From assembly GCF_005877905.1 (NCBI RefSeq), contig NZ_SWDV01000002.1, forward strand, positions 124,001 to 188,000: 64,000 bases of DNA, in the 5' to 3' direction. Below the pieces are notes generated by a model that had not been told where the DNA came from, did no database searches, and saw nothing but the letters and a program-made list of their open reading frames with translations. This DNA comes from Pseudomonas nicosulfuronedens (lineage in GTDB: Bacteria; Pseudomonadota; Gammaproteobacteria; Pseudomonadales; Pseudomonadaceae). A program made the translations under genes and the position numbers. This document shows, piece after piece, positions 47,464-63,872 of the stretch; position 1 is the stretch's first letter; every line of letters begins with the position of its first letter.

Positions 47464-47520
47464 GGAACGTCCTCAAAAGCGGTCGGATGACTTTCGAGGA
47501 GGGCGTGGCAAGGGCGGCAG

Positions 47521-47540
47521 GCCGCACTTGACGGTGCGGC
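47521..47540 (-). promoter_or_regulatory. Hairpin between riboswitch and btuB start
   Basis: GCCGCAC pairs with GTGCGGC over a 6-base loop. It lies between the aptamer and the btuB ribosome-binding site (TTTGAGGACG), where the expression platform should be. No T-tract follows, so control of translation is likelier than termination. Confidence 0.5.
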
Positions 47541-47565
47541 CCTCCGCAACACCTGTCGGGGCGTG

Positions 47566-47735
47566 TCGAGGGCGGTCTCCGGGCTGCCGACGTCACATCG
47601 CCGCCTTCCCACAGTCGTGCAGTGGCTACTGGCGATGCTGCAATCCATGAAGGATCGCGTCGGTTACCGTTGCGGGGGCAGCGCAGGTCTTTCACCTGCT
47701 TCCCGTTACCTCGAACGAAAACGGGGCGAACCATA
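47566..47735 (-). promoter_or_regulatory. Cobalamin riboswitch
   Basis: On the minus strand the aptamer reads GGTAACGGGAAGCAGGTG, then GCGCTGCCCCCGCAACGG, GCCACTG, GTGGGAAGGCGG, and ends in a B12 box AGCCCGGAGACCGCC (about 47571-47585). These are the conserved parts of the AdoCbl/Cbl riboswitch in proper order. It should reduce btuB expression when cobalamin is abundant. Borders are approximate. Confidence 0.92.
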
Positions 47736-48000
47736 CGATCAAGGTCTGCGATGAGCAAGGGCAGCGGCGATCGACGGCTCGTGCTGCGCTGTGCCAACGC
47801 TTTCCGACGACTCGCCGCCAGCCCATCTGGCAGGGGCTTTGCCGACCTATTGCGGGCTGCGACGAAATCGCCCAGGTCGTGCCCATGGGCGCGATGGCTC
47901 ACTCGAACTCTGTCGATCCGCTGAAAAGTTTGCCGATTTTCGATAGGGCTGGTCTGCCCCCCTTGGTTAGCCTTTTGTTCATGGACAAGAGGTGCGCCCG

Positions 48001-48336
48001 ATGAGCAGAGAACGAATCATTCAGGAGTTTGTGCCAGGCAAGCAGGTGACCCTGGCACACCTGATTGCGCATCCGCAGGAAGACCTGTCGAGCAAGATCG
48101 GCGTCCCTGGCGCCGAGGCCATCGGCATCATGACGCTCACCCCCGGCGAGACGGCGATGATCGCGGGTGATTTCGCCACCAAGGCCGCCAATGTGCAGAT
48201 CGGCTTCCTCGATCGCTTCAGCGGCGCACTGGTCCTCTATGGCAGCGTCGGTGCGGTGGAAGAAGCGCTGGAGCGTACCTGCGCCAACCTCGACCGCCTG
48301 CTCGCCTACACCATTTGCCCGGTGACCCGGAGTTGA
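48001..48336 (+). CDS. eutS: Ethanolamine microcompartment shell protein EutS
   Basis: BMC shell protein of the circularly permuted EutS/PduU type, 111 residues, identical in length to the enterobacterial protein. It begins [25 protein letters not shown] and contains [39 protein letters not shown]. Permuted hexamers of this kind are bent in Eut and help close the shell. First gene of the operon; AAGAGG precedes the ATG at 48001. Confidence 0.95.
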
Positions 48337-48338
48337 GC

Positions 48339-48806
48339 ATGCAGACCCATCGATATGCCCTGGTCGGCGGCGTGGGAGCGGGCAAGACCACTTTGTTCAA
48401 CGCCCTGCGCGGCCGCCGCGAAACGCCGCGCAAGACCCAGGCCCTGGACTTCGACCTGTGCGGTGCGATGGATACCCCCGGCGAGTTCATCAGTCATCCA
48501 CGGCTGTACCGGGCCTTGATTACCAGCACCGACAACGTGGACACCCTGGTCTACGTGCATCCGGCCAATGAGCCGGAGTGTCGTTTGCCGCCGGGACTGC
48601 TCGACATTCACTCGGGCAAGCGCCTGGTCGGTGTGATCAGCAAGTGCGACCTGGCCGACGCGGACCCGGATGCGGCCGAGTCCCTGATGCGGCGGCACGG
48701 CATCCATGGCGAGATCCTGCGCGTCGCCCAGGACGACCCCACCAGTATCGAGCGTCTGCGCCAGGTGTTGCACGGACGCGCTCCGCTTGAGGAAAAGTAT
48801 CCATGA
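48339..48806 (+). CDS. eutP: EutP/PduV-family GTPase-like protein
   Basis: 155 residues. P-loop VGGVGAGKTTLF near residues 9-20, a DTPGEF switch II segment near 48, and SKCDLADA as the base-recognition motif near 105 (usual NKxD, here SKCD). EutP of Salmonella has been described as an acetate kinase, while PduV localises to microcompartments. Two bases after eutS. The last codons overlap eutQ in ATGA. Confidence 0.93.
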   Translation: MQTHRYALVGGVGAGKTTLFNALRGRRETPRKTQALDFDLCGAMDTPGEFISHPRLYRALITSTDNVDTLVYVHPANEPECRLPPGLLDIHSGKRLVGVISKCDLADADPDAAESLMRRHGIHGEILRVAQDDPTSIERLRQVLHGRAPLEEKYP

Positions 48807-49531
48807 AAAAGCTGATTACCGCGGGCTCCGTGCGCGAGGCGATTGCCGCCGGGCAGCGTTCGCTCGAAGTCGAGCTGCCGCGCTGCATTCTGACGCCCGA
48901 GGCGCGGATGATCGCCGAGGAAGCAGGGCTGGAGATCATCGAGCGCATCGCCGGTGAGGCCGTGCAGCCTGGGGATGGTACGGCCATGAAAGACACCGAG
49001 GCGGTCAACGATTCCGCGCTTGCCAGCGAGGACCAGATTGCGGCCATCCGCGCAGCCGTGCTGGAGCGTCTTCCTGCCGATGCCGATGCGGCACTGGTTG
49101 AACAACTGGTGCGCAAGGCGGCTCGGGCGGGTGGCATGACAGCGAGTCCGGAACCGTCGGGATTCGAGTCGCGCACCGGTGCTGGCGGCATCAAGCTGGT
49201 GAAGGGCGACAGCGTGCGTTTCGGCCTGCTCGACGGCGTCGAGGGCGGTTGCCAGATCGGCATCACCGACGTGGTCGGTACCGAGGATGGCAGCAGCATG
49301 GGCGCCGGCTTCATGCAGTGGGAAAACGCTTTCTTCCCGTGGACGCTGAACTACGACGAGGTGGACCTGGTACTCGAGGGTGAGCTGCACATTCGTCAGT
49401 ACGGCGAGACCCTGGTTGGCCGGCCCGGCGACCTGCTGTTCATTCCCAAGGGCAGCCGCATCGAGTTCGGTACGCCGACCCGTGTGCGCTTCCTCTATGT
49501 GGCCTGGCCGGCCAACTGGCAGGAGCAGTGA
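48803..49531 (+). CDS. eutQ: EutQ cupin protein (acetate kinase-like, assembly factor)
   Basis: 242 residues, slightly longer than the Salmonella protein (229). N-terminal MKKLITAGSVREAI, a variable linker to about residue 120, then the C-terminal cupin domain (TDVVGTEDGSSMGAGFMQWEN, LNYDEVDLVLEGELHIRQYG, GRPGDLLFIPKGSRIEFG). In Salmonella, EutQ has acetate kinase activity and is needed for microcompartment assembly. Overlaps eutP by four bases; eutT starts five bases on. Confidence 0.93.
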   Translation: MKKLITAGSVREAIAAGQRSLEVELPRCILTPEARMIAEEAGLEIIERIAGEAVQPGDGTAMKDTEAVNDSALASEDQIAAIRAAVLERLPADADAALVEQLVRKAARAGGMTASPEPSGFESRTGAGGIKLVKGDSVRFGLLDGVEGGCQIGITDVVGTEDGSSMGAGFMQWENAFFPWTLNYDEVDLVLEGELHIRQYGETLVGRPGDLLFIPKGSRIEFGTPTRVRFLYVAWPANWQEQ

Positions 49532-49535
49532 GGCG

Positions 49536-50369
49536 ATGAGCACCTTCATCACCGAGACCTGGCTGCGTGAGCGACATGGCCTGAGCGAAGGTACCGAGTT
49601 GCACCTGCCGGCCGACGCCCGCTTGACCCCGGCGGCGCGTGCGCTGATCGAGGCGCGCCGGCTGACAGTGAAGTACCACGACGAGCAAGGGCGCCTGTTC
49701 CGCGACAACCAGGCCGGCGATGGCGCCGAGCCGGAGCCGGTGCACGGGCTGACCGGTCAGGCGGAAAGCGTCGTTGCCTGCTGCCAGCTGTGTCACCAGC
49801 CGGCCGAGCACAAGCCCGAGGGCATGACCCACCTGAACGCCCGCGAGCTGGTGGCCAAGAACGATCCGCGCCTGCGCTTGCGCGCCCAGCTCGATGCGGC
49901 CATCGCCCTCGCGGTGTGGTTGCAGGTGGAGCTGCGCGAACCTCAGGAACTGGTCGCCTGGCTGGGTGACCTGCGCTCGGTGCTGGGCCAGGTGATGCGC
50001 GCTGATGTGCTGGGTGAGTCGTTGCCTGGTTTCAGTATCGGCGGGCTCGATGATGGCGAGCTGCACCGATTGTCCCATGCGCCGCTGAAGTACCTCGGGC
50101 ATGACCATCTGGTGCCGGAGCTGGCGCACGGGCGTGCCTGCGCACAACTCAACCTGTTGCGCGCCAAGGTGCGCGAAGTCGAGGTCTGTGCCGCCGAGGT
50201 GTTCATCGGACCCGGCTACCAACTGCAGCGCAAGGATCTGCTGCACGCACTCAATCGGCTTTCCAGTGCGCTCTATGTGGCGATGCTGCTCAGTGTCCTG
50301 CACCAGCGCGGCCAGCCTTGGCCCAGTCGAGAAGTGCTGCTGCAACGCCTGCAAGGAGATCGCTCATGA
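49536..50369 (+). CDS. eutT: ATP:cob(I)alamin adenosyltransferase EutT
   Basis: Makes coenzyme B12 for EutBC. 277 residues (267 in Salmonella). The EutT-specific metal site H-x11-CC-x2-C is present as His70, Cys82, Cys83 and Cys86 (HGLTGQAESVVACCQLC). The C-terminal helical half has KYLGHDHLVPELAHGRACAQLNLLRAKVREVE and the PduO-like fold. The Fe/Zn site and Cys ligands are intact, so the enzyme should be functional. Overlaps eutD by four bases. Confidence 0.94.
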   Translation: MSTFITETWLRERHGLSEGTELHLPADARLTPAARALIEARRLTVKYHDEQGRLFRDNQAGDGAEPEPVHGLTGQAESVVACCQLCHQPAEHKPEGMTHLNARELVAKNDPRLRLRAQLDAAIALAVWLQVELREPQELVAWLGDLRSVLGQVMRADVLGESLPGFSIGGLDDGELHRLSHAPLKYLGHDHLVPELAHGRACAQLNLLRAKVREVEVCAAEVFIGPGYQLQRKDLLHALNRLSSALYVAMLLSVLHQRGQPWPSREVLLQRLQGDRS

Positions 50370-51367
50370 GCCTGCTCGACGAGTGCCGCCGGGCCGCCCG
50401 GCTTGATCCACCGCGGGTGGTATTCCCTGATGGCCTGGATCGCCGCGCCATCGAGGCGGCGCAGTATCTCAAGCGCGAAGGGCTGGCACAGCCACTGCTC
50501 CTGGGCAACCCCTTCGCCCTGCGCAGCTATTGCCTGGAGCAGGGCGTGCGTCTGGGCGAGGTACCCGTGCTCGACCCCGAGCACTCGCCCAGGATCGATG
50601 CCTTTGTCGAGTCCTTGTTGCAGCGGCAGTCGAAGCTGACCCCGGAGCAGGCGTGTGAGTCGCTGCGTTCACCGCTTGGGTTCGGCGCGGCCATGCTCGA
50701 GGCCGGTCTGGTCGACCTGTGCATTGCCGGCAATCTCAGTTCCACCGCCGATGTGCTGCGCGCAGGTCTGCGAGTGGTGGGTCTGGAACCGGGTAACCGC
50801 ACACTGTCTTCGGTGTTCTTCATGCTGCCGCCCGATGGCGGACAGCCGCTGGCGTTCGCCGATTGCGGCGTGATCCCGCGGCCGACGGTGGAGCAGCTGG
50901 CGGATATCACCCTCAGCTCGGCTGCCAGCTTCGAGCGGGTGACCGGCCAGCCGGCGAAGGTGGCGATGCTCTCCTTCTCCAGTCATGGCAGCGCCCGCCA
51001 TCCCGATGCCGAGGCCGTGCGCGCGGCGTGCGCGTTGGTACGCGAACGCGCGCCGCAATTGTGTGTGGATGGCGAACTGCAGTTCGACGCGGCTTTCGTG
51101 CCCCAGGTCGCCGCCCTGAAGGTGCCCTCCAGCCCGCTGCAGGGGGCGGCCAATGTGTTCGTCTTCCCCAGCCTGGAGGCCGGCAACATTGGCTACAAGA
51201 TCGCTCAGCGCCTGGGCGGCTATCGCGCCATCGGGCCGATGCTTCAGGGCATGCGCGCCGCGCTGCACGACCTGTCCCGTGGCTGTAGTACGGAAGAAAT
51301 GATTCAGATGGTTCTGCTCGCCGGAAAGATGGGCGGTGGAGCCGCTGCTGTGAACCGAGTCGCCTGA
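50366..51367 (+). CDS. eutD: Ethanolamine-specific phosphotransacetylase EutD
   Basis: Converts acetyl-CoA to acetyl-phosphate, recycling CoA inside the compartment. 333 residues, short EutD form lacking the N-terminal regulatory part of Pta. PPRVVFPDGLDRRAIEAAQYL begins it; AGNLSSTADVLRAGLRVVGLEPGNRTLSSVFF, MLSFSSHGSARHPDAEAV, and VFPSLEAGNIGYKIAQRLGG are the conserved active-site stretches. Start at 50366 preceded by AAGGAG. The shell gene eutM follows after 105 bases. Confidence 0.95.
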   Translation: MSLLDECRRAARLDPPRVVFPDGLDRRAIEAAQYLKREGLAQPLLLGNPFALRSYCLEQGVRLGEVPVLDPEHSPRIDAFVESLLQRQSKLTPEQACESLRSPLGFGAAMLEAGLVDLCIAGNLSSTADVLRAGLRVVGLEPGNRTLSSVFFMLPPDGGQPLAFADCGVIPRPTVEQLADITLSSAASFERVTGQPAKVAMLSFSSHGSARHPDAEAVRAACALVRERAPQLCVDGELQFDAAFVPQVAALKVPSSPLQGAANVFVFPSLEAGNIGYKIAQRLGGYRAIGPMLQGMRAALHDLSRGCSTEEMIQMVLLAGKMGGGAAAVNRVA

Positions 51368-51433: not shown

Positions 51434-51472
51434 GATGCAGTCCCGCAAGGGTGATTGTTCGAGGAGAGTGTG

Positions 51473-51763
51473 ATGGAAGCGTTAGGCATGATTGAAACCA
51501 AGGGCCTGGTGGCGCTGATCGAAGCGTCCGACGCCATGGTCAAGGCCGCCCGGGTCAAGCTGGTCGGGGTCAAGCAGATCGGTGGTGGCCTGGTCACCGC
51601 GATGGTGCGTGGCGACGTCGCCGCGTGCAAGGCCGCCACTGATGCCGGTGCCGCCGCGGCACAGCGCGTCGGTGAGGTGGTTTCGGTGCAGGTGATTCCG
51701 CGTCCGCATTCGGACCTGGAAGAAGTCTTCCCGATCAAGCTGACCGGTGGTTCGCTGGATTGA
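51473..51763 (+). CDS. eutM: Major hexameric shell protein EutM
   Basis: Single-BMC-domain protein of 96 residues ([26 protein letters not shown]...[30 protein letters not shown]). It forms flat hexagonal sheets with a central pore and is usually the most abundant shell subunit. Start 51473 follows GGAGAGTGTG. Long non-coding gaps (105 and 123 bases) flank it, unlike the overlapping genes around, which suits a separate expression level. Confidence 0.96.
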
Positions 51764-51886: not shown

Positions 51887-52174
51887 ATGAAACTGGCAAT
51901 GGTGGTGGGGCAGGTGGTTTGCACCGTCAAGCATCCGGGCCTGGGGCTCGATCGGTTGTTACTGGTCCAGGGACTGGACGGTGAAGGCCGACCCGACGGC
52001 GAGCGCCTGGTCGCCAGCGATGCCATCGGCGCCGGCAACGGCGAATGGGTCCTGCTGGCCAGCGGGAGCTCCGCACGGCAGGCCAGCAGCGACGGGCGCG
52101 CGCCCATAGATCTGTGCGTGGTCGGCATCGTCGATGAGGCGGTGCTGGACGGCGAAGTGTTCTACCGCAAGTAA
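51887..52174 (+). CDS. eutN: Pentameric shell vertex protein EutN
   Basis: 95 residues, EutN/CcmL family. MKLAMVVGQVVCTVKHPGLGLDRLLLVQ is the typical opening and APIDLCVVGIVDEAVLDG the end. Pentamers of this family close the vertices of microcompartments. The spacer before it ends with AAGGAATGACGA; the one after is 100 bases. Confidence 0.95.
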   Translation: MKLAMVVGQVVCTVKHPGLGLDRLLLVQGLDGEGRPDGERLVASDAIGAGNGEWVLLASGSSARQASSDGRAPIDLCVVGIVDEAVLDGEVFYRK

Positions 52175-52238: not shown

Positions 52239-52274
52239 CGGACGGATTCATCCTGAATTTGAGTGAGGCACGAC

Positions 52275-53699
52275 GTGGATATCAACCCGAAGGAAATCGA
52301 ACAGGTAGTCAAGGCGGTACTCGCCTCGATAGGGGCGACCTCCACGGCCGCTGCAGCCTCCGCGCCCGGTGCCAGTTGTGCACCGGGCGTCTTCATCGAA
52401 CTCGACGACGCCGTGGCGGCCGCTCGCCACGCACAAAAGGCTCTGCATTCGGTCGCCATGCGCAACACCGCGGTTGCCGCCATTCGCGGCGCCGGTGAAC
52501 GCCATGCCCGTGAACTGGCGGAGCTGGCGGTGGAAGAAACCGGCATGGGCCGGGTGGACGACAAGATCGCCAAGAACATCGCCCAGGCTCGTCATACCCC
52601 GGGTACCGAATGCCTGCAGGCGCAGGTGCTGACCGGCGACCACGGCTTGACCCTGATCGAGAATGCCGCCTGGGGCGTGATCGCCTCGGTGACGCCGTCG
52701 ACCAACCCGGCGGCCACGGTGATCAACAACGCCATCAGCATGATCGCCGCCGGCAACTCGGTGGTGTTCGCCCCGCACCCGGCGGCCAAACGGGTATCCC
52801 AGCGCACGGTCAGCCTGCTCAATGAAGCGTTGGTCGAAGCGGGCGCGCCGGCCAATCTGATCACCACCGTACAGAGTCCGGACATCGAAACTGCGCAGCG
52901 TCTGTTCCGTTATCCGGGCATCGGGCTGCTGGTGGTCACCGGTGGCGAGGCCGTGGTCGAGGCGGCGCGCAAGCACACCGACAAACGCCTGATCGCCGCC
53001 GGTGCCGGCAACCCGCCGGTGGTGGTGGACGAATCCGCCGACCTGGCGCGCGCCGGGCGCGACATCGTGTTTGGCGCCTCGTTCGACAACAACATCATCT
53101 GCGCCGACGAGAAGGTGCTGATCGTCGTCGAAAGCGTGGCCGACCGTCTCAAGGCCGAGATGCTCAAGCATCAGGCGGTGGAGCTGACAGCGGCCCAGGC
53201 AGCGCAGCTGCTACCGGTGCTGCTGCCGAAGATCGACGCCCAGGGCCGTGGTGCTGTGTCCCGCGACTGGGTCGGCCGCGACGCGGCGAAGATCGCCGCC
53301 GCCATCGGCCTGCAAGTGCCTGCCGACACGCGTCTGCTGTTGGTGGAAACCAGTGCCGAGCACCCGTTTGCGGTCACCGAACTGATGATGCCAGTGCTGC
53401 CTATGGTGCGGGTCGCCAGCGTCGAGCGCGCCATCGAGTTGGCCGTGACGCTCGAAGGTGGCTGCCACCACACCGCTGCCATGCACTCGCGCAATCTGGA
53501 AAACCTCGATCGCATGGCCAACGCCATCGACACCAGCATCTTCGTCAAGAACGGGCCGTGCATTGCGGGCCTGGGCTTTGGTGGGGAGGGCTGGACCACC
53601 ATGACCATCACCACACCCACCGGCGAGGGCGTGACCTCGGCGCGCACCTTCGTGCGCCTGCGTCGGTGCGTCATGGTCGATCAACTGCGAATCGTCTGA
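52275..53699 (+). CDS. eutE: CoA-acylating acetaldehyde dehydrogenase EutE
   Basis: Oxidises acetaldehyde to acetyl-CoA with NAD and CoA. 474 residues, GTG start at 52275. The first 20 residues (MDINPKEIEQVVKAVLASIG) form an amphipathic helix of the encapsulation-peptide type, followed by an Ala-rich linker. The catalytic Cys is C276 in NNIICADEKVLI. NAD-binding TPSTNPAATVINNAISMI is present. The C-terminal GPCIAGLGFGGEGWTTMTI is typical. Cargo of the compartment; its NADH is recycled by EutG. Confidence 0.96.
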   Translation: MDINPKEIEQVVKAVLASIGATSTAAAASAPGASCAPGVFIELDDAVAAARHAQKALHSVAMRNTAVAAIRGAGERHARELAELAVEETGMGRVDDKIAKNIAQARHTPGTECLQAQVLTGDHGLTLIENAAWGVIASVTPSTNPAATVINNAISMIAAGNSVVFAPHPAAKRVSQRTVSLLNEALVEAGAPANLITTVQSPDIETAQRLFRYPGIGLLVVTGGEAVVEAARKHTDKRLIAAGAGNPPVVVDESADLARAGRDIVFGASFDNNIICADEKVLIVVESVADRLKAEMLKHQAVELTAAQAAQLLPVLLPKIDAQGRGAVSRDWVGRDAAKIAAAIGLQVPADTRLLLVETSAEHPFAVTELMMPVLPMVRVASVERAIELAVTLEGGCHHTAAMHSRNLENLDRMANAIDTSIFVKNGPCIAGLGFGGEGWTTMTITTPTGEGVTSARTFVRLRRCVMVDQLRIV

Positions 53700-53706
53700 G
53701 GCGGCC

Positions 53707-54549
53707 ATGCAACGCGATCTGCAGCACTGGCTGTCACCCCGCTTGCGGCGCGCCGCCGCTTGCCAGGCTGAACCCGCCGTGACGGACATCGTCGCGGGGC
53801 CGCTGAGCCTGGGCATCGACCTGGGGACTTGCGACGTGGTGTCGATGGTACTCGACACCCAGGGCATACCGGTTGCTGTGCGCCTGGACTGGGCGGATGT
53901 GGTGCGTGATGGCGTGGTCTGGGATTTCTACGGTGCGGTGACGCTCGTCCGCCGGCAACTCGACAGCCTGCAGGAGCAGTTGGGCGTGCGCTTCACCCAG
54001 GCGGCGACCTCCTTCCCTCCGGGCACCGAGCCACGCATCTCGATCAACGTGCTGGAAGCGGCCGGGCTGGATGTCACCTGCGTGATCGACGAGCCCTCAG
54101 CCGTGGCACGGATGCTCCGGCTGAAGAGTGCCGCGGTGGTCGACATCGGTGGTGGCACCACTGGCGTAGCGGTGGTGCGTGACGGCCAGGTCATTCATTC
54201 CGCCGACGAGCCCACTGGTGGTCACCACGTCAGCCTGGTGCTGGCCGGCCACCTGGGCATTGCCCTGGAAGAGGCCGAGCAGCGTAAACGCCGTGAAGGC
54301 GAAGCGCTCTGGCCGCTGGTGCGCCCGGTGTTCGAGAAGATGACCGACATCGTCCGCCAACACTTGCGCGGCTTCGACGTCGACGAAATCTACCTGTCCG
54401 GCGGCTCCTGCACCCTGCCCGGCGTGCAGGCGTTGTTCGCCCAGGCGTTTCCACAGCAGCGGGTGCTGCTGCCGGCGCCCCCTCTCTTCACGACCCCACT
54501 GGCCATTGCCAGTTGTGGCCTGCAAGCCGCGTCAGGAGTTTCACCATGA
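53707..54549 (+). CDS. eutJ: EutJ, Hsp70-like actin-fold protein
   Basis: 280 residues. ATPase phosphate loops: LGIDLGTCDVVSMVLD near residue 35 and VVDIGGGTTGVAVV near 145; adenosine motif LSGGSCTLPGVQALFA near 240. It lacks the substrate-binding domain of DnaK. Presumed chaperone for Eut enzymes. Follows GAGGCGG and overlaps eutG by four bases (ATGA). Confidence 0.93.
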   Translation: MQRDLQHWLSPRLRRAAACQAEPAVTDIVAGPLSLGIDLGTCDVVSMVLDTQGIPVAVRLDWADVVRDGVVWDFYGAVTLVRRQLDSLQEQLGVRFTQAATSFPPGTEPRISINVLEAAGLDVTCVIDEPSAVARMLRLKSAAVVDIGGGTTGVAVVRDGQVIHSADEPTGGHHVSLVLAGHLGIALEEAEQRKRREGEALWPLVRPVFEKMTDIVRQHLRGFDVDEIYLSGGSCTLPGVQALFAQAFPQQRVLLPAPPLFTTPLAIASCGLQAASGVSP

Positions 54550-55745
54550 AGCAGCAGGATGTCGGCCGGGTGATCTACCGTGCCCTGGACATGCTCAACG
54601 CCCGGGCCGTGCGTGAGTTCCGCGTGCCACCCAGCACCTACATCGGCGCCGGTGCCATCGCGCGCGCTGGAGAAGCGATCAGGGCCTGCGGCATCGGCCG
54701 GGTGTTCGTGATGGTCGATGGTCTGCTGCACCAGCAGGGACTCGACGAAGGGCTGTTCCGCTCGCTGGACGATGCCGGCGTGGCCTTCGAATGCCTGGTC
54801 TATCCCGGCGGTGAGCCACACAGCGAAACCGTGGAAGCGGCGGGCCGGCAATTGCTCGCCACCGCCTGTGACGGCGTGCTGGCCTTCGGTGGCGGCTCGG
54901 TGCTGGATGCCGCCAAGGTCACCGCGATGCTGGCAGCCAACCTGGGTTGTGCGCTGAATGGCCTGGGACAGGAAGGGCAGCCGTTGCGCCGCCGAGTGCC
55001 ACTGATCGCCGTACCGACCACCGCCGGCACCGGCTCCGAAGCCACCAATGTGGCGGTCATCACCGACAGCATTCGGCGGGTGAAGCAGGTGTTGGTGCAC
55101 ACCGACCTGATTCCTGACCTGGCGATCATCGATGCCTGTCTGACCGTTGGCGTGCCGCCGGCCGTGACCGCCACTACCGGTATCGATGCGCTGACCCATG
55201 CGGTGGAGGCCTATGTGTCGCCGACCGCCACGCCTCTGACCCAGGGCCTGGCCCTGCGCGCCGTGACGCTGATCGGCGAGGCGCTGCCGCTGGCAGTGGG
55301 GCAGGGCGGCAACGTCGCTGCGCGCGAGTCGATGATGCTCGCTTCCTACATGGCCGGAATGGCCTTCTCCAACTCCGGGCTGGGGCTCTGCCATGCCACT
55401 GCCCACCCGCTCGGCGCGCGCTACGGCATCCCTCACGGGCAGGCCAACGCGCTGATGCTGCCGGCCGTCATGCGTTTCAACCAACTGGTGTGCAAGCGCG
55501 CCTACGCCGAGATCGGTTGTGCGCTGACCCGCCGTGAGCTGGATGCCAGCGACAGCATTGGTGCCGTGCAGCAGCTGATCGACGAAGTCGGTGCGGGTCG
55601 CCCACTGGCGTCGTTCGGCGTGCTGCGCGAGGACTTCGCCGCCCTTGCCGAGGTTGCGCTGCAGGACAACTGCCTGGCCGGAAACCCGCGCACTGCCACG
55701 GCACAACAAATCATCGGCATCTACCAGGATGCCTGGCAGCGCTGA
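54546..55745 (+). CDS. eutG: Iron-dependent alcohol dehydrogenase EutG
   Basis: Reduces acetaldehyde to ethanol and regenerates NAD inside the shell. 399 residues. GGGSVLDAAK (NAD phosphate loop), PTTAGTGSEATNV, and metal ligands in GIDALTHAVEAY and HATAHPLGARYGIPHGQANA. Residues 3-20 (QQDVGRVIYRALDMLNAR) look like an N-terminal targeting helix. Overlaps eutJ by four bases and is 47 bases before eutH. Confidence 0.94.
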   Translation: MKQQDVGRVIYRALDMLNARAVREFRVPPSTYIGAGAIARAGEAIRACGIGRVFVMVDGLLHQQGLDEGLFRSLDDAGVAFECLVYPGGEPHSETVEAAGRQLLATACDGVLAFGGGSVLDAAKVTAMLAANLGCALNGLGQEGQPLRRRVPLIAVPTTAGTGSEATNVAVITDSIRRVKQVLVHTDLIPDLAIIDACLTVGVPPAVTATTGIDALTHAVEAYVSPTATPLTQGLALRAVTLIGEALPLAVGQGGNVAARESMMLASYMAGMAFSNSGLGLCHATAHPLGARYGIPHGQANALMLPAVMRFNQLVCKRAYAEIGCALTRRELDASDSIGAVQQLIDEVGAGRPLASFGVLREDFAALAEVALQDNCLAGNPRTATAQQIIGIYQDAWQR

Positions 55746-55792: not shown

Positions 55793-57043
55793 ATGAGCAT
55801 CAACGAAATCATCATGGTCATCATGATGGTCTTCCTGCTGATCGCAGCGGTGGACAGGGTATTCAGTCAGTTTGGTGGGTCGGAGCGTATTCTCGGCTTC
55901 ATCGGCCTGGGCAAGGTCGGACGGGGCATCGAGGGGGCCGGCTCGCAGTTCGAAGAAGGCTTCATGGCCATGGGCGCCCTGGGCCTGGCGATGGTCGGTA
56001 TCACCGCGCTGGCGCCGGTACTGGCGCACCTGCTCGGCCCGCTGGTGATCCCGCTGTATGAAAGTGTTGGGGCGAGCCCGGCCATGTTTGCCGGCACCCT
56101 GCTGGCCAACGACATGGGCGCGTTCTTCCTGGCCAAGGAACTGGCCGGTGGCGACACCGCCGCCTGGCTGTACTCCGGCCTGATCCTCGGCGCGATGATG
56201 GGCCCGACCCTGGTGTTCATCATTCCCGTGGCGCTGGGCATCATCGAGCCGGGCGACCGCCGCTACCTGGCCCTTGGCACGCTGGCTGGCATCGTCACCA
56301 TTCCGCTGGGCTGCATCGCCGGTGGGCTGGTGGCGATGGTCTCGAACATCGAGGTCAACGGCCTGCCGGTCGAGTTCACCCTGGCGATGATCCTGATCAA
56401 CATGATCCCGGTGCTGATCGTCGCCGGCCTGATCGCCCTGGGCCTGAAGTTCTGCCCGGAAAAGATCATTGCCGGCTTCGAAGTGTTCGCCAAGATCCTC
56501 GTCGGCGTGATCACCGTCGGCCTGGCTGCCGCCGTGGTGCAGTACACCGTTGGCTGGACGCTGATCCCCGGTATCGATCCGATCTTCATGAGCGCCGGTG
56601 ACAAGCCGGGCGAGGTGATGCGCGCCATCGAGGTGATCGGCTCGATCGCCTGCGTATTGCTGGGCGCCTATCCCATGGTGATGTTGCTGACCCGCTGGTT
56701 CGGCACACCGCTGATGAAGGTCGGCAGCCTGCTGGGGATGAACAAGGATGCCGCCGCCGGCATGGTCGCCAGCCTGGCCAACGTGATCCCGATGTTCGGC
56801 ATGTTCGGCAAGATGGATAACCGCGGCAAGGTCATCAATTGCGCCTTCGCCGTGTCCGCTGGCTTCGCCCTGGGCGACCACCTCGGTTTCACCGCCGCGA
56901 ACATGTCCGCGATGATCTTCCCGATGATCGTCGGCAAGCTGATCGGCGGCGTCACTGCGGTGATCGTGGCGATGATGATCGTGCCCAGGTCCGAGCCGCT
57001 CGCCATCGACGCCGATGCGCCCGCATCGCTGCCGGCCAAATAG
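55793..57043 (+). CDS. eutH: Ethanolamine permease EutH
   Basis: 416 residues, about eleven transmembrane helices, beginning MSINEIIMVIMMVFLLIAAVDRVFSQFGGSERILG. Conserved segments include GMAS-type FAGTLLANDMGAFFLAKEL and MVASLANVIPMFGMFGKMDNRGKVINCAFAVSAGFALGDHLGFTAA. The family carries ethanolamine across the inner membrane when it is scarce or protonated. Many pseudomonads use the unrelated Eat permease with eutBC; EutH is the enterobacterial type. Confidence 0.95.
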   Translation: MSINEIIMVIMMVFLLIAAVDRVFSQFGGSERILGFIGLGKVGRGIEGAGSQFEEGFMAMGALGLAMVGITALAPVLAHLLGPLVIPLYESVGASPAMFAGTLLANDMGAFFLAKELAGGDTAAWLYSGLILGAMMGPTLVFIIPVALGIIEPGDRRYLALGTLAGIVTIPLGCIAGGLVAMVSNIEVNGLPVEFTLAMILINMIPVLIVAGLIALGLKFCPEKIIAGFEVFAKILVGVITVGLAAAVVQYTVGWTLIPGIDPIFMSAGDKPGEVMRAIEVIGSIACVLLGAYPMVMLLTRWFGTPLMKVGSLLGMNKDAAAGMVASLANVIPMFGMFGKMDNRGKVINCAFAVSAGFALGDHLGFTAANMSAMIFPMIVGKLIGGVTAVIVAMMIVPRSEPLAIDADAPASLPAK

Positions 57044-57053
57044 GAGCGCGGCG

Positions 57054-58460
57054 ATGAGCAGGAAGGAGTTGCGCAGCGTCGGCATCGACATCGGCACCAC
57101 CACCACCCAGGTGATCTTCTCCCGGCTGGTGCTGGTCAACCGTGCCTCGCTTTCCCAGGTGCCGCACTACGAGTTCGCTTCGCGGGAGGTCACCTACGTC
57201 AGCCCGGTGACTTTCACGCCGATCGACTTCGAGGGGCATCTGCGCGAAGACGAGCTGCTCGACTTCATTCTTGCGCAATATCAAGCGGCAGGGCTGGTGC
57301 CGGAGGACATCGAATCCGGCGCGATCATCATCACCGGTGAAACCTCCAAGGCGCGCAATGCCCGTCCAGCCGTGCTGAAGCTGGCCGAGCGGCTCGGTGA
57401 CTTCGTGGTTGCCAGCGCCGGGCCGCACCTGGAGTCGGTGATCGCCGGGCGCGGCGCCGGTGCCGCCGAGCTGTCGGCGCAAAGCGCCAGCCGCGTTCTG
57501 AACATCGACATCGGTGGCGGCACCGCCAACTATGCGCTGTTCGAGGCCGGCCGGGTGGTCGCCTCGGCCTGCCTGAACGTCGGCGGGCACCTGGTGGAGC
57601 TCGATGGCCAGGGGCGGGTCAGGCACCTGCACGCCCCTGCACGCGCCATCTGCCGTGAGCTGTTTCCCGGCTTTGACGAGGCCCGTGGGTTGAGCGCCGA
57701 GCAGTTGCGCGCGCTGACCCGGCGCATGGCCCATTTGCTTCATGAGGTGATCAGCGGCGAGCTGTCACCGCTGGCGCACGAACTGCTGATGACCGCTCCG
57801 CTGCCGGCCACGGCGCCGCTGCACGCGGTGACCCTCTCCGGCGGCGTCGGGCAGTGTTACTACCATGATCGCGACGAGGCGCCGTTGCGCTACGGCGATA
57901 TCGGCCCTTTGCTGGCCAACGCGCTGCGCGAGGACGCGGGACTCGCCAGCCTGCCGGTCCGCGAGCCGAAACAGACCGTGCGCGCCACGGTGATCGGCGC
58001 CGGCGCTCACAGCCTGTCGCTGTCGGGTAGCACCATCTGGTTGCGCGACCTGCACCTGCCGTTGCGCAACATCCCGGTCATCCATGGTGTGCCCGGCCAG
58101 GCATCGGTCGAGGCCTGGAGCGCCCGCCTGGCGCAGATGGACCTGCGCGCCAGCGAGGACCTCTATGCCCTGGCCCTGGCCGACGACCTGCCCATCGCCT
58201 ACCAGGCGTTGCAACGCTGCGTGACGGAACTCAGCGAGTTCCAGCGCCGGCATCCCAATCCCCATCCATTGCTGGTTGTCGCCAGCCAGGACCTCGGCAA
58301 GGCGCTGGGCATGTTGCTCCAGCCGCACCTGGCCGGGCGGGCCCTGGCGGTGATCGACGAGGTCGCGACCGGCGATGGCGATTACATCGATATCGGCAGC
58401 CCGATCTTCGACGGCGAGATCCTCCCGGTCACCGTCAAGTCCCTGGCTTTTCCTTCCTGA
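57054..58460 (+). CDS. eutA: Ethanolamine ammonia-lyase reactivase EutA
   Basis: Removes damaged cobalamin from EutBC using ATP. 468 residues, as in Salmonella (467). Actin-like loops: VGIDIGTTTTQVIFSRL near residue 7 and LNIDIGGGTANYALFEAG near 150. Met at 57054 follows AGGAGCGCGGCG; upstream in-frame Met codons lie within the end of eutH. The gene is ten bases after eutH. Confidence 0.95.
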   Translation: MSRKELRSVGIDIGTTTTQVIFSRLVLVNRASLSQVPHYEFASREVTYVSPVTFTPIDFEGHLREDELLDFILAQYQAAGLVPEDIESGAIIITGETSKARNARPAVLKLAERLGDFVVASAGPHLESVIAGRGAGAAELSAQSASRVLNIDIGGGTANYALFEAGRVVASACLNVGGHLVELDGQGRVRHLHAPARAICRELFPGFDEARGLSAEQLRALTRRMAHLLHEVISGELSPLAHELLMTAPLPATAPLHAVTLSGGVGQCYYHDRDEAPLRYGDIGPLLANALREDAGLASLPVREPKQTVRATVIGAGAHSLSLSGSTIWLRDLHLPLRNIPVIHGVPGQASVEAWSARLAQMDLRASEDLYALALADDLPIAYQALQRCVTELSEFQRRHPNPHPLLVVASQDLGKALGMLLQPHLAGRALAVIDEVATGDGDYIDIGSPIFDGEILPVTVKSLAFPS

Positions 58461-58486
58461 GCTTTCTCTTTCCCAAGGCAGTGACG

Positions 58487-59848
58487 ATGAAACTCAAGAC
58501 TCAGTTGTTCGGCAAGATCTACCAGTTCGGTAGCGTCAAGGAAGTCCTGGCCAAGGCCAACGAGCCACGCTCAGGCGACATTCTCGCAGGAGTTGCCGCG
58601 AGCACTGCCCAGGAGCGTGTCGCGGCCAAGCAGGTGCTTTCGGAACTGACCGTCGCCGACATCCGCATGAACCCGGTCATCCCTTATGAGGAGGACTGCG
58701 TCACGCGGTTGATCCAGGACGGCATCAACGAGACGTCCTATGCCCGTGTGGCGAACTGGAGCATCGGCGAGCTGCGCGAGTACATCCTCGCCGACAGCAC
58801 CGACACCGATGCCATTGCCTTCCTCCGCAAGGGGTTGAGCTCCGAGGTGGTCGCGGCGGTGGCGAAGATCTGCTCCAACACCGACCTGATCTACGGCGCG
58901 AAGAAGATCCCGGTGGTCAAGCGCGCCAACAACACCATCGGCCTGCCCGGCCACTTCAGCGCCCGCCTGCAGCCCAACGACACCCGCGACGATGTGAAGA
59001 GCATCGCTGCGCAGCTGTACGAGGGGCTGTCCTACGGCATCGGCGACGCGGTGATCGGGGTCAACCCGGTGACCGACAACGTGGAGAACACCACCCGGGT
59101 ACTGGGCACCCTCTACGAGGCCATCGACAAGTTCGAGATTCCGACCCAGGGCTGCGTGCTGGCGCACGTCACCACCCAGGTCGAGGCCATTCGCCGGGGC
59201 GCACCGGGCGGGCTGATCTTCCAGAGCATCTGCGGCAGCGAGAAGGGGCTGCGCGAGTTCGGTGTGGAACTGGCCATGCTCGACGAAGCACGAGCCGTGG
59301 GCGCCGAGTACAACCGTATCGCCGGCAGCAACTGCCTGTACTTCGAAACCGGCCAGGGCTCGGCGCTGTCCGCTGGGGCGCACTTCGGCGCCGACCAGTT
59401 GACCATGGAAGCGCGCAACTACGGCCTGGCCCGCCACTACGACCCGTTCATGGTCAACACGGTGGTCGGCTTCATCGGCCCGGAGTACCTCTACAACGAC
59501 CGCCAGATTATCCGCGCCGGTCTCGAAGACCACTTCATGGGCAAGCTCAGTGGCCTCTCCATGGGCGTGGACTGCTGCTACACCAACCACGCCGACGCCG
59601 ACCAGAACTCCAACGAGAACCTGATGATCCTGCTGGCCGCCGCTGGCTGCAACTTCATCATCGGCATGCCGATGGGCGACGACATCATGCTCAATTACCA
59701 GACCAGCGCCTTCCACGACACCGCCACCATTCGCCAGTTGCTCGGCCTGCGTCCGGCACCGGAATTCGAGCAGTGGCTCGAGCGCATGGGGCTGATGCAC
59801 AACGGCCGGCTGACGGCGCGCGCCGGCGATCCCTCCATTTTCTTTTAA
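58487..59848 (+). CDS. eutB: Ethanolamine ammonia-lyase large subunit EutB
   Basis: Substrate-binding TIM-barrel subunit of the AdoCbl-dependent lyase that splits ethanolamine to acetaldehyde and ammonia. 453 residues, the exact length of the enterobacterial subunit. Hallmark stretches: LPGHFSARLQPNDTRDDVKSIAAQLYEGLSYGIGDAVIGVNPVTD, FETGQGSALSAGAHFGADQLTMEARNYGLARHY, MGVDCCYTNHADADQNSNENLM. ATG 58487 preferred to GTG 58481; AAGGCAG precedes. Complete and apparently intact. Confidence 0.97.
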   Translation: MKLKTQLFGKIYQFGSVKEVLAKANEPRSGDILAGVAASTAQERVAAKQVLSELTVADIRMNPVIPYEEDCVTRLIQDGINETSYARVANWSIGELREYILADSTDTDAIAFLRKGLSSEVVAAVAKICSNTDLIYGAKKIPVVKRANNTIGLPGHFSARLQPNDTRDDVKSIAAQLYEGLSYGIGDAVIGVNPVTDNVENTTRVLGTLYEAIDKFEIPTQGCVLAHVTTQVEAIRRGAPGGLIFQSICGSEKGLREFGVELAMLDEARAVGAEYNRIAGSNCLYFETGQGSALSAGAHFGADQLTMEARNYGLARHYDPFMVNTVVGFIGPEYLYNDRQIIRAGLEDHFMGKLSGLSMGVDCCYTNHADADQNSNENLMILLAAAGCNFIIGMPMGDDIMLNYQTSAFHDTATIRQLLGLRPAPEFEQWLERMGLMHNGRLTARAGDPSIFF

Positions 59849-59860
59849 AGGTGAACTGAC

Positions 59861-60742
59861 ATGCATCAGCAGCAGATCGAGGACATCGTTCGCTCCGTAT
59901 TGAACGAGCTCAAGGCAAGTCCGGCCGGTGCCCCGGGAATGGAGGCGGCCCCCGTTCAGGCTGGCGTCGAGGATGGCCTGTGCTCCTGGGACCTGGGCTC
60001 CGCCGAGGCCCGGCAATGGATCGGTATCGACAACGCGCAGCGCCCGGAGGTGCTCCAGGAATTCCGCAAATCCACCGCCGCGCGCGTCTGCCTCGGGCGT
60101 GCCGGCGTGCGTCCGCGCACCCAGGCACTGCTGCGTTTCCTGGCGGACCACTCGCGCTCCAAGGACACCGTACTCAAGGAGGTCTCTGCCGAGTGGGTGA
60201 AGCAGCAGGGCCTGCTCGAAGTGCAATCGGAAGTGGAAACCAAGGACCAGTACCTGACCCGTCCGGACATGGGCCGTCGCCTTGACGAAAAGGCCATCGC
60301 CACACTGTTGGCCGAGTGCAGGAAGAACCCGCAGGTGCAGGTGGTGATCTCCGATGGCTTGTCCACCGATGCGGTGACGGCGAACTTCGACGAGATTCTT
60401 CCGCCCTTGCTGCAGGGCCTGAAAAGCGCCGGGCTGGATGTCGGCACGCCGTTCTTCGTGCGCTACGGCCGGGTCAAGGTCGAAGACCAGATCGGCGAAC
60501 TGCTCGGCGCCCAGGTAGTGATCCTGCTGGTGGGTGAGCGTCCGGGCCTGGGCCAGTCGGAAAGCCTGTCCTGCTATGCGGTGTACAAGCCGACCCAGGC
60601 CGGCACCGTGGAAGCCGACCGTACCTGCATCTCCAACATCCACCGCGGCGGCACCCCGCCGGTGGAAGCGGCAGCGGTCATTGTCGATCTGGCCAAGCGG
60701 ATGCTGGAGAAGAAAGCCTCCGGTATCGCACTGAACCGTTAA
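59861..60742 (+). CDS. eutC: Ethanolamine ammonia-lyase small subunit EutC
   Basis: Cobalamin-contacting subunit, 293 residues (298 in Salmonella). Residues 1-20 ([20 protein letters not shown]) form an amphipathic targeting helix joined by a Gly/Ala/Pro linker to the catalytic part. Conserved: [67 protein letters not shown]. It lies 12 bases after eutB and is 14 bases before eutL. Confidence 0.96.
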
Positions 60743-60756
60743 GGGAGTGACATTCG

Positions 60757-61416
60757 ATGAGCATGCTCGATCCGATCAAACCCAGCGTCACGGCCATGCG
60801 CCTGATCGCTTCGCTGCAGGATGACTTCCGCCGCGAACTGAAACTCCCCGATGACATCCGCAGCCTCGGACTGATCAGCGTCGACTCCGACGATGTGGCC
60901 TACATCGCCGCCGACGAAGCCACCAAGCAGGCGCTGGTGCAGGTGGTCTATGGCCGCTCGCTCTACGCTGGCGCGGCCAACGGCCCGTCGTCCACCGCCG
61001 GCGAAGTACTGATCATGCTCGGCGGGCCGAACCCTGCCGAGGTGCGCGCCGGCCTCGATGCGATGGTCGCCACCATCGAGAACGGCCCGGCGTTCCGCTG
61101 GGCCAACGATGCCGAGAACATCGCCTTCCTCGCCCATGTGGTATCGCGCACCGGCAGCTACCTGGCGCAGACCGCGGGGATCACCGAGGGCGATCCCATC
61201 GCCTACCTGGTGGCGCCTCCGCTGGAAGCGACCTTTGGCATCGACGCGGCGCTCAAGGCTGCCGACGTGCAACTGGTGACCTACGTACCGCCGCCTTCGG
61301 AGACCAACTACTCGGCCGCGTTCCTCAGTGGCAGCCAGGCGGCCTGCCTGGCCGCTTGCAACGCCTTCCGCGAAGCCGTCCTGGACGTTGCGCGGCAGCC
61401 TGTCCAGTTGCGCTGA
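60757..61416 (+). CDS. eutL: Trimeric tandem-BMC shell protein EutL
   Basis: 219 residues, same length as the enterobacterial EutL, two permuted BMC domains in tandem (about 1-105 and 106-219). Conserved: [67 protein letters not shown] and [14 protein letters not shown]. EutL trimers have a gated large pore; the family also has a small-molecule site. Confidence 0.96.
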
Positions 61417-61429
61417 GGAGGAACGCGGA

Positions 61430-61957
61430 ATGCTCAACGCCATCGGTCTGCTGGAAGTTCGTGGCCTGGTCGTCGGGATCGAGGCCGCTGACGCCATGCT
61501 CAAGTCGGCCTCGGTTCGCCTGCTACGCCAGGCACTCACCAATCCTGCGCTGGTCAGCCTGGTGGTGGAGGGCGATCTCGCAGCCTGCCGCGCTGCACTG
61601 GATGCTGGCGCAGCTGTAGCCTTGCGCGCCAACGCGCTGGTCAGCCGCAAGGAAATCGGCCGGCCGGAGGACGACACGGCCTACCTGCTGGACACTCTGC
61701 TGGCGGAGCCATCTCCGCCTCCGCCAACCGCTTGCGCCAGCGCGCCGGCGGTCGTTGCCGAGGAACCGATCGAGGTGCCGGAAGGGCTTCTGCCGTTGTT
61801 GGCGCAGCACAAGCACGGCTGCAGTGCCAGTGAGGTGTCGGCGGCGTTCGAGGTGCCAGTGGAGGTGGCTCGCGATTGGCTGGAGCAACTCTGCGTCAGC
61901 GGCAAGTTGCGCAAGCGCGGCAGCCGCTACCGGCGTGCGGGAGGTAGTGCGACATGA
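61430..61957 (+). CDS. eutK: Shell protein EutK with C-terminal winged-helix domain
   Basis: 175 residues. N-terminal BMC domain (1-90): LGL-type LLEVRGLVVGIEAADAMLKSASVRLL and VVEGDLAACRAALDAGAA, ending SRKEIGRPEDDT. An Ala/Pro linker is followed by a helix-turn-helix (about 125-175: LLPLLAQHKHGCSASEVSAAFEVPVEVARDWLEQLCVSGKLRKRGSRY). This two-part layout is specific to EutK and suggests nucleic-acid binding in the lumen. GAGGAGGAAC ribosome-binding site. Overlaps the next gene by four bases. Confidence 0.95.
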   Translation: MLNAIGLLEVRGLVVGIEAADAMLKSASVRLLRQALTNPALVSLVVEGDLAACRAALDAGAAVALRANALVSRKEIGRPEDDTAYLLDTLLAEPSPPPPTACASAPAVVAEEPIEVPEGLLPLLAQHKHGCSASEVSAAFEVPVEVARDWLEQLCVSGKLRKRGSRYRRAGGSAT

Positions 61958-63345
61958 CCCGCATCCTCGACCTGGATGCCGGGCTGATCCGGCGCCGGGT
62001 AGCGGCGGCAGGTGTGGTCGGGGCCGGCGGCGCCGGCTTCCCGACTCACGTCAAGCTCAATGCCAGCGCCGAGATCTACCTGGTCAACGGCGCGGAGTGC
62101 GAGCCTTTGCTGAAGGTCGACCAGCAGATGGCCGATGAGCAGGCCGAGTGGTTGATCAAGGGGCTGCTGTACGGCATGGCTGCGACCGGCGCCGCTGAAG
62201 GCATCATTGCGCTCAAGGCCAAATACCAGGCCGCCATCGATCGCCTGACGCCGTTGCTCCCCGAGCGCGTGCGGTTGCACATCCTGCCGGACATCTATCC
62301 GGCCGGCGACGAGGTGATCACCATCTGGCTGGCCACTGGCCGGCGTGTACCGCCGGCGCAGCTTCCGCTGTCCATCGGCGTGGTGGTGAGCAACGTGCAG
62401 ACGCTGATCAACGTCGCCCGCGCGGTCGAGCTCGAGCAGCCGGTCACCCAGCGCACCCTGACGGTGAACGGCGCGGTGCGCCAGCCGCTGACGCTCAGCC
62501 TGCCGCTGGGTACGCCGCTGCGCGAGGCGCTGGCGTTGGCTGGCGGCTGCACGGTGAGCAATCCCGCCTTCATCAATGGCGGGCCGATGATGGGGCACCT
62601 GCTGGATGACCTCGACGAGCCGGTGACCAAGACCACCGGCGGCCTGCTGGTGCTGCCCGAGGATCACCTGCTGATCCGCCGTCGCCGGCAGAGCATGGAC
62701 ACGGTGCTGGCCATGGCACGTTCGGTGTGCGAGCAGTGCACGCTGTGCACCGAACTCTGCCCACGGCACATGATCGGTCACGAACTGCCGCCGCACCTGA
62801 TCGTGCGCGCCACCAATTACCAGCACATTGCCCAGCCCAGTGTATTGCTGTCGGCGCTGACCTGTTCCGAGTGCGGTATCTGCGAGGCCTATGCCTGCCC
62901 GGTGGAGATATCGCCGATGCGCTTGAATCAGGCGCTCAAGGGCCGTCTGCGCGCCGAGGGCGCCCGCTACGAAGGCGAGCTGCGCGCGGCCGACCCGATG
63001 GCCGAGTACCGCCTGCTGCCGGTCAGCCGGCTGATTTCCCGCCTGGAGCTGCAAGCCTTCAACCACAAGGCGCCGATGCAGGTCACGGACGACGCCCCGC
63101 GTGAGGTCAGCCTGCCGTTGCGCCAGCACATCGGCGTTGCAGCCGAGCCTTGCGTTGGCGTGGGCCAGACGGTGGTTGCCGGCCAATGCATCGCCAGCAT
63201 CCCTGAAGGGCAGCTGGGTGTTCCGCTGCACGCGAGTATCGATGGCCAGGTCATCGAGGTCGGTATCAGCCATATCCGCATTGCAGCCTCCACCGCGGAC
63301 ACACTTTCCCAAGGAGAATCTCCATGTATCACGCCATCGGCCTGA
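61954..63345 (+). CDS. pduS: PduS-like flavin/iron-sulfur cobalamin reductase
   Basis: 463 residues, RnfC/Nqo1-like. The N-terminal flavin- and NADH-binding fold has [16 protein letters not shown] near residue 20 and [19 protein letters not shown]. Two cysteine clusters: C259-x2-C-x2-C-x3-C ([11 protein letters not shown]) and C304-x2-C-x2-C-x4-C ([12 protein letters not shown]), for two [4Fe-4S] centres. In the Pdu system PduS reduces cob(III/II)alamin for adenosylation and binds PduT. Here it follows eutK, where Salmonella has eutR. Overlaps pduT by 22 bases. Confidence 0.92.
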
Positions 63346-63872
63346 TCGAGCTGACCAGCATTGCCCGTGGCGTCCAGGTCGCCGACCTGATGCTCAAGAG
63401 TGCCGATGTGCAACTGCTCTCGGCCAAGACCATCTGTCCCGGCAAGTACATTGCCATGGTCGGCGGACAGATCGCTGCGGTGCAGCAGGCCGTTGCCACG
63501 GGAGAAGAGGCGGGCGGCCACATGGTGGTCGATCGCTTCGTTCTGCCCAATATCCACGAATCGGTGTTGCCGGCGATCAGCGGCGTGACCCGGGTGGAGC
63601 GCACCCAGGCGCTGGGCGTGGTGGAAACCTTCAGTGTGGCAGCCTGCATCGAAGCGGCGGACGCCGCGGTGAAAGCGGCCAACGTGGTACTGGTGCGCGT
63701 ACACATGGCCTTCGGCATTGGCGGCAAATGCTACCTGGTGGTGACCGGCGACGTCGCCGACGTGGAGACCGCGGTCAAGGTCGCGTCGCAAAGTGCCGGT
63801 GAGAAGGGTCTGCTGGTTCACAGCATGACGGTTCCCAGGCCGCACGTTGACCTGTGGCAGCACCTGCTCTAG
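63324..63872 (+). CDS. pduT: PduT-like tandem-BMC shell protein with Fe-S cysteine
   Basis: 182 residues (184 in Salmonella PduT). Two BMC domains: [29 protein letters not shown] and [41 protein letters not shown]. Cys38 in KTICPGKY is at the residue that ligates the pore [4Fe-4S] cluster in the PduT trimer. The cluster is thought to pass electrons across the shell. CAAGGAGAATCTCC before the ATG. Last gene seen in the operon; 128 bases remain after it. Confidence 0.94.

Follow-up and report, generated by a model that had tools for sequence, protein, structure and literature searches.

Towards its downstream end, the window (the whole 64,000-nucleotide stretch of Pseudomonas nicosulfuronedens DNA that was analysed) carries a series of ethanolamine utilization (eut) genes on the plus strand, with a cobalamin riboswitch and a receptor gene facing the other way at one end and a pduS-like and a pduT-like gene at the other. 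The genes of the locus, identified with high confidence, are the following, the last two lying beyond the end of the window:

45610..47463, minus strand: TonB-dependent receptor gene, behind the riboswitch (PF00593 and PF07715)
47554..47746, minus strand: cobalamin riboswitch, flanked by the TonB receptor gene and eutS (RF00174, 71.9 bits, gathering threshold 31.5)
47992..48336, plus strand: eutS (NF012012, 191.9 bits)
48315..48806, plus strand: eutP-like (NF012011, 163.6 bits, under the cut-off of 258, near full length)
48803..49531, plus strand: eutQ (NF012001, 269.8 bits)
49530..50369, plus strand: eutT, cobalamin adenosyltransferase (NF011595, 358.1 bits; PF01923)
50363..51367, plus strand: eutD, Pta-type phosphotransacetylase (NF007233, 354.7 bits)
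51455..51763, plus strand: eutM (NF012018, 185.1 bits)
51887..52174, plus strand: eutN (NF011992, 129.7 bits)
52263..53699, plus strand: eutE, acetaldehyde dehydrogenase (NF011927, 688.3 bits)
53707..54549, plus strand: eutJ (NF011660, 346.7 bits)
54546..55745, plus strand: eutG-like alcohol dehydrogenase (NF011998, 452.3 bits, under the cut-off of 556, near full length)
55793..57043, plus strand: eutH (NF011665, 694.3 bits)
57051..58460, plus strand: eutA, reactivating factor (NF007993, 698 bits, under the cut-off of 769, near full length)
58481..59848, plus strand: eutB (NF011649, 661.8 bits)
59861..60742, plus strand: eutC (NF003971, 330.7 bits)
60757..61416, plus strand: eutL (NF011934, 370.7 bits)
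61430..61957, plus strand: eutK (NF012010, 177.3 bits, under the cut-off of 218, near full length)
61954..63345, plus strand: pduS-like, 463 aa; NADH/FMN domain (Nuo51-like), SLBB, two 4Fe-4S clusters, RnfC-type barrel
63324..63872, plus strand: pduT-like, 182 aa; tandem BMC-domain shell protein with Cys38
64004..65062 in window-equivalent coordinates (L005:2005-3063; genome G000, contig C2), same strand: eutR (NF007522)
L005:3150-4331, after eutR: acetate kinase family gene (TIGR00016, 438.4 bits)

The starts of eutT, eutD, eutG and eutA were picked by the analyst within longer open reading frames, as was the start of eutR, whose frame as listed begins at window-equivalent 63926. Four matches (EutP, EutG, EutA and EutK) fall under their NCBIfam cut-offs, though near full length. 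The riboswitch and the TonB receptor gene (45610-47746, minus strand) are divergent to eutS and likely represent B12 uptake adjoining a B12-dependent operon; the receptor is presumably BtuB.

Taken together, the locus amounts to a complete ethanolamine microcompartment operon of the proteobacterial (EUT1) type, eutSPQTDMNEJGHABCLK-pduST-eutR-ackA, found in a Pseudomonas and of the Morganella kind. The features listed for EUT1 in the excerpts available from PMC4207490 are present: eutB, eutC and the reactivating factor eutA, a Pta-type EutD, EutT, the alcohol dehydrogenase EutG, and EutR, encoded just past pduT, beyond the end of the window. The same excerpts report maeB/hemF/yfeX neighbours in 90% of EUT1 loci.

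The pduS-like and pduT-like genes are real and an integral part of this operon. The first overlaps eutK by 4 bases and the second overlaps the first by 22 (from ORF coordinates), and an aaggag motif precedes the pduT-like start; the overlaps, as an earlier note on this DNA had held, point to a shared transcript with the eut genes. The PduS protein holds the Pfam domains PF01512, PF10531, PF13534 and PF13375, which is the domain set given for PduS in the part of PMC6325248 that was available. It also carries the two tetracysteine motifs described for Citrobacter PduS, CxxCxxCxxxC and CxxCxxCxxxxC, together with an N-terminal GxGxxG (PMC2982820, in part), here GAGGAG at residues 23-28 as counted by eye. 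Both four-cysteine clusters (C259/262/265/269 and C304/307/310/315) are invariant in 83/83 aligned rows and C38 of PduT is invariant in 81/81, the rows having been collected by likeness to the window PduS, so that the ligand retention claimed in the earlier note is borne out. The ten best records of a plasmid collection, every one enterobacterial, are 63-66% identical to the window PduS. The PduT protein combines tandem BMC domains with the pore Cys38 and matches the PDB PduT chains 3pac (E 9e-76) and 3n79 (E 9e-73); since this strong match comes with a TIGR02526 eut_PduT score of 139.5 bits, under the cut-off of 250.3, the protein was filed as a PduT homologue and not as a TIGR02526 equivalog.

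The window ends 128 bases past pduT, which explains why the pair had been taken for the two 3'-most genes of the operon, standing in place of eutR. Neither statement survives, as the next gene on the same strand encodes EutR (389.6 bits to NF007522, cut-off 319) and is followed by the acetate kinase gene. A full pdu operon immediately downstream, sharing pduST, was the objection that the earlier note raised against itself; it is rejected, given that eutR and acetate kinase occupy that place and that the genome has a single BMC-domain locus. All seven PF00936 (BMC-domain) matches of the genome fall within it, and the PF00936 search found no second one (its control was positive in 2/14 genomes, E. 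coli and Synechococcus). A search of the genome with PF02286 (diol dehydratase, PduC) gave no match but shows little, its control matching in 0/14 genomes. Two further EutB matches lie off the BMC locus, at G000 C10:235326-236627 (L105) and C2:235182-236471 (L106), which apparently brings the ethanolamine ammonia-lyase large subunits of the genome to three, with one of them in the compartment operon.

The distribution of the pair was followed in one scan of species genomes, in which 140 PduS loci were confirmed and the best 80 kept. By their neighbouring genes, these best 80 of 140 comprise 39 loci in eut context, 38 in pdu context and 3 without a label. The eut label is based on an eutB match in 35 cases, on eutL only in 3 and on a eutK-like match in 1; the pdu label is based on pduC in 28 and on pduO in 10. 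The 39 eut-context loci come from beta- and gammaproteobacteria, apart from one in a Desulfovibrio and three in Desulfosporosinus. The earlier note had suggested a search of eut loci for pduST beside eutK. A eutK match lies at most 153 bases upstream of the PduS match in 32/39 eut-context loci, and within 1.3 kb in four more, the three Desulfosporosinus loci having another layout. In 12/39, a eutR match follows pduT on the same strand within 162 bases, namely in three Pseudomonas, four Morganella, Klebsiella sp. BIGb0407, Pluralibacter, Xenophilus and two Chromobacterium. A pduT-like shell gene adjoins the PduS gene in 81/81 rows.

Within the genus of the window, eutL was found in 5/25 genomes and PduS in the same 5/25 (limit E 1e-60), about 0.6 kb from eutL; one of these five PduS matches (G001) contains a TGA. 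In a class-wide sample, eutL occurred in 1/369 genomes, the one being the window's own. Four Thauera/Pseudothauera loci (L028, L034, L035, L036) have their eut genes split, with eutBCLK-pduST on one strand and eutR, eutS and eutP on the other, joined there by eutQTD where the stretch reaches. A Planctomycetaceae bin with PduS/PduT (L060) shows no eut or pdu marker nearby above the thresholds; its PduS is nearest to that of a Desulfovibrio bin, and contamination of the bin is possible.

The mechanism proposed for the pair builds on its Citrobacter homologues. According to the available excerpts of PMC2982820, Citrobacter PduS binds FMN (also PMC6325248, in part), apparently holds two 4Fe-4S clusters, reported to be oxygen-labile, is reduced by NADH and acts on cob(III)- and cob(II)alamin; it co-purifies with tagged PduT, while the converse experiment with tagged PduS failed. 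Any benefit under air, as envisaged in the earlier note, is hypothetical and stands beside this reported oxygen lability. By analogy with the Citrobacter proteins, PduS would most likely be bound to the PduT trimer on the lumen side of the shell. Electrons from the NADH made by EutE would enter at the FMN of PduS and pass to its two 4Fe-4S clusters; PduS could then reduce oxidised cobalamin, which EutT would re-adenosylate for EutBC, and surplus electrons would leave the lumen through the Fe-S centre in the PduT pore. The potential quoted for the PduT cluster, +99 mV (PMC2982820, in part), is suited to letting electrons out and not to donating them for cobalamin reduction. The reactions with NADH and cobalamin, like the docking of PduS to PduT, are carried over from the studied Citrobacter proteins, and the coupling to EutT and the direction of electron flow are purely conjectural; gene content, gene order, conserved ligands and co-occurrence with eut are matters of observation.

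A cobalamin-reducing role was taken as the first choice because EutT is encoded in the operon and the riboswitch and TonB receptor gene lie next to eutS. As a whole, the explanation of a Morganella-type Eut operon in which PduS reduces cobalamin and PduT provides an electron outlet is considered moderately probable, and cobalamin reduction as the main role is seen as evenly balanced. Among the points against this explanation are that the genome also encodes a CobO/BtuR-type adenosyltransferase and that the eut operon of E. coli, in one genome read, has no pduST. PduS has also been regarded as nothing more than a flavin reductase, a view recorded in PMC2982820 (in part).

The strongest alternative is that PduST works mainly as an NADH dehydrogenase of the lumen with an electron outlet, regenerating the NAD+ that EutE uses, in addition to EutG or in its place, with electrons going to a respiratory acceptor outside the shell and cobalamin being secondary. 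In its favour are eut loci with pduST whose genomes appear to lack EutT and an EutG-level match. EutT and EutG were searched genome-wide for 9/39 eut-context loci, a choice made to include six that looked deprived and three that did not. EutT was found in 3/9 of these genomes, and an EutG-level match (>400 bits) in the same 3; neither was found in the six others (L050, L052, L055, L062, L070, L075), which nevertheless keep pduST. In four of the six, nothing better than weaker iron alcohol dehydrogenases turned up (best 150-227 bits), and in the other two nothing matched; in the stretches of these six betaproteobacterial loci eutG, eutT, eutJ and eutH give no match above 60 bits. The L050 and L055 stretches read eutSPQDMNEABCLK-pduST, followed by a transporter and ackA; the transporter downstream of pduT is a TRAP transporter in L050 and an amino-acid permease in L055. 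Each of the six genomes is a metagenome bin, and five belong to a single clade, which weighs against this alternative and makes the absence tentative.

Further points in favour of this alternative are that PduST is often retained in glycyl-radical compartments that have no B12 enzymes (PMC6325248, PMC4207490, both in part), that a PduT-like shell protein of the Listeria eut cluster has been proposed as a redox carrier (PMC8547011, in part), and that the nearest solved structures to PduS are RnfC and NADH dehydrogenase subunits. Set against it are the presence of EutG in the window operon and in 17/39 eut-context stretches, many of the others being incomplete or split, and the fact that the PduS biochemistry tested so far, in the excerpts of PMC2982820, is corrin reduction. 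NADH disposal as the main role, in this form, is regarded as rather unlikely. The six bins nonetheless bear on the preferred reading as well: together with the B12-free glycyl-radical loci they indicate that PduST does not need EutT, and a role tied to EutT alone is therefore unlikely as a general explanation. For these six, an electron-outlet role tentatively fits better than one dedicated to EutT. The reductase for EutT envisaged in the earlier note accordingly remains plausible in this operon, which encodes EutT, and improbable as a rule for all such loci.

The names of the genes, and the identity to enterobacterial PduS given above, could also be read as a recent capture of pduST from a propanediol operon, the pair being a passenger or a hybrid part. 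This is very improbable, and largely contradicted by trees of PduS built from the 80 best matches to the window query and thus biased to near relatives. In the first tree, the pdu-context rows form one group of 38 plus one unlabelled row, with no eut-context row (SH-aLRT 95). With Ilyobacter and Acetoanaerobium as outgroups, the 38 rows stay on one side of a branch (SH-aLRT 95), and in a reduced tree 25 pdu-context rows form one clade (support 100/94). The reduced tree dropped 23/84 rows (three of unknown context, three with long branches, the rest near-copies), its rows being chosen by hand after the first trees to keep 33 eut, 25 pdu and 3 outgroup sequences. To the first two outgroups Listeria PduS was later added; their branches are very long and several forks weak. 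The window PduS groups with three Pseudomonas, and the pair follows eutK in distant classes. Since no eut-context PduS arises from inside the pdu-context clade, recent capture is rejected and the term hybrid Eut/Pdu compartment, as used in the earlier note, becomes doubtful.

When the tree is rooted with the distant outgroups, the pdu clade nests among the eut sequences, and 0% of 200 bootstrap trees unite the eut sequences in one clade; a tree that forces them into one clade has a log-likelihood 9.5 lower and is not rejected (p-AU 0.176). A joined EutB+EutC+EutL tree with 36 rows (34/39 eut-context loci, the window and E. coli) places the E. coli operon, which has no pduST, in a set of 10 rows whose other members all carry pduST (98/99); this set in turn lies in one of 14 rows (100/100). 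The separate clade of pdu-context PduS and the nested position of E. coli tentatively make pduST appear an old Eut part and not a fresh Pdu graft. The branching suggests that pduST was lost in the E. coli line, with one pduST-free operon in the tree. A broader scenario is put forward as possible, though tentative: pduST would be ancestral in proteobacterial Eut, lost in E. coli-type operons and passed from Eut to Pdu, and the role shared by all would be electron transfer across the shell, not service to EutT.

Finally, a respiratory RnfC-like subunit unrelated to the compartment, as hinted at by RnfC TIGR01945 being the top NCBIfam model for PduS (252.6 bits, cut-off 245.95), has next to no probability and is rejected by the constant adjacency of pduT, the likeness to enterobacterial PduS and the next-best match in the genome, on another contig and only 34% identical, which is presumably the genome's own RnfC.

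The wider pattern, in which eut-context pduST extends over beta- and gammaproteobacteria, Desulfosporosinus and a Desulfovibrio and also over six bins lacking detectable EutT or an EutG-level match, could matter. Whether PduS/PduT serve B12 repair or electron export could be tested on Eut compartments that have the pair and others that lack it, for which a cultivable Pseudomonas offers itself.

Several related systems have been described. Compared with the PduS/PduT of Pdu compartments, the window proteins show the same domain order, both cysteine clusters, Cys38 and adjacent genes; they differ in accompanying EutT and EutBC and not PduO and a diol dehydratase, and in belonging to a separate PduS lineage. 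PduS is present in EUT2B and EUT2D loci, and GRM1 has a PduS homologue with a BMC-T protein carrying the PduT cluster cysteine (PMC4207490, in part). EUT2B and EUT2D thus likewise have PduS in ethanolamine loci, with another locus type, other regulators and another phosphotransacylase, and the Listeria eut cluster shares the PduT-like shell protein but is of a different locus type. The order eutE-J-G-H-A-B-C-L-K and the presence of eutR are common to the window and to E. coli EUT1 (one genome, in the stretch from eutE on), where eutR follows eutK directly, without pduST; in that genome, E. coli A10, examined among 5338 with an eutB match, no annotated gene lies between the two. The enteric eut set is given as 17 genes (cited from PMC3521468, in part).

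Among the titles and abstracts listed from the open-licence literature, pduST was not found for Pseudomonas or betaproteobacterial eut operons, a weak null result, and the available parts of PMC8217296, PMC11101070 and PMC3542024 do not mention the pair in a eut operon. The earlier note knew of no described Eut system with this pair, but one was reported in 2012: Morganella morganii KT has the operon eutSPQTDMNEJGHABCLK-pduST-eutR, its eutK-pduS-pduT-eutR junctions were checked by PCR and sequencing, and its authors found no pdu operon in the genome (PMC3521468, in part). The window has the same genes in the same order, with pduST between eutK and eutR, and its PduS is 68-70% identical to that of four Morganella genomes other than KT. 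What differs is the host and the ackA gene after eutR in the window's genome; the layout of the operon is already known, and Pseudomonas is a new host for it.
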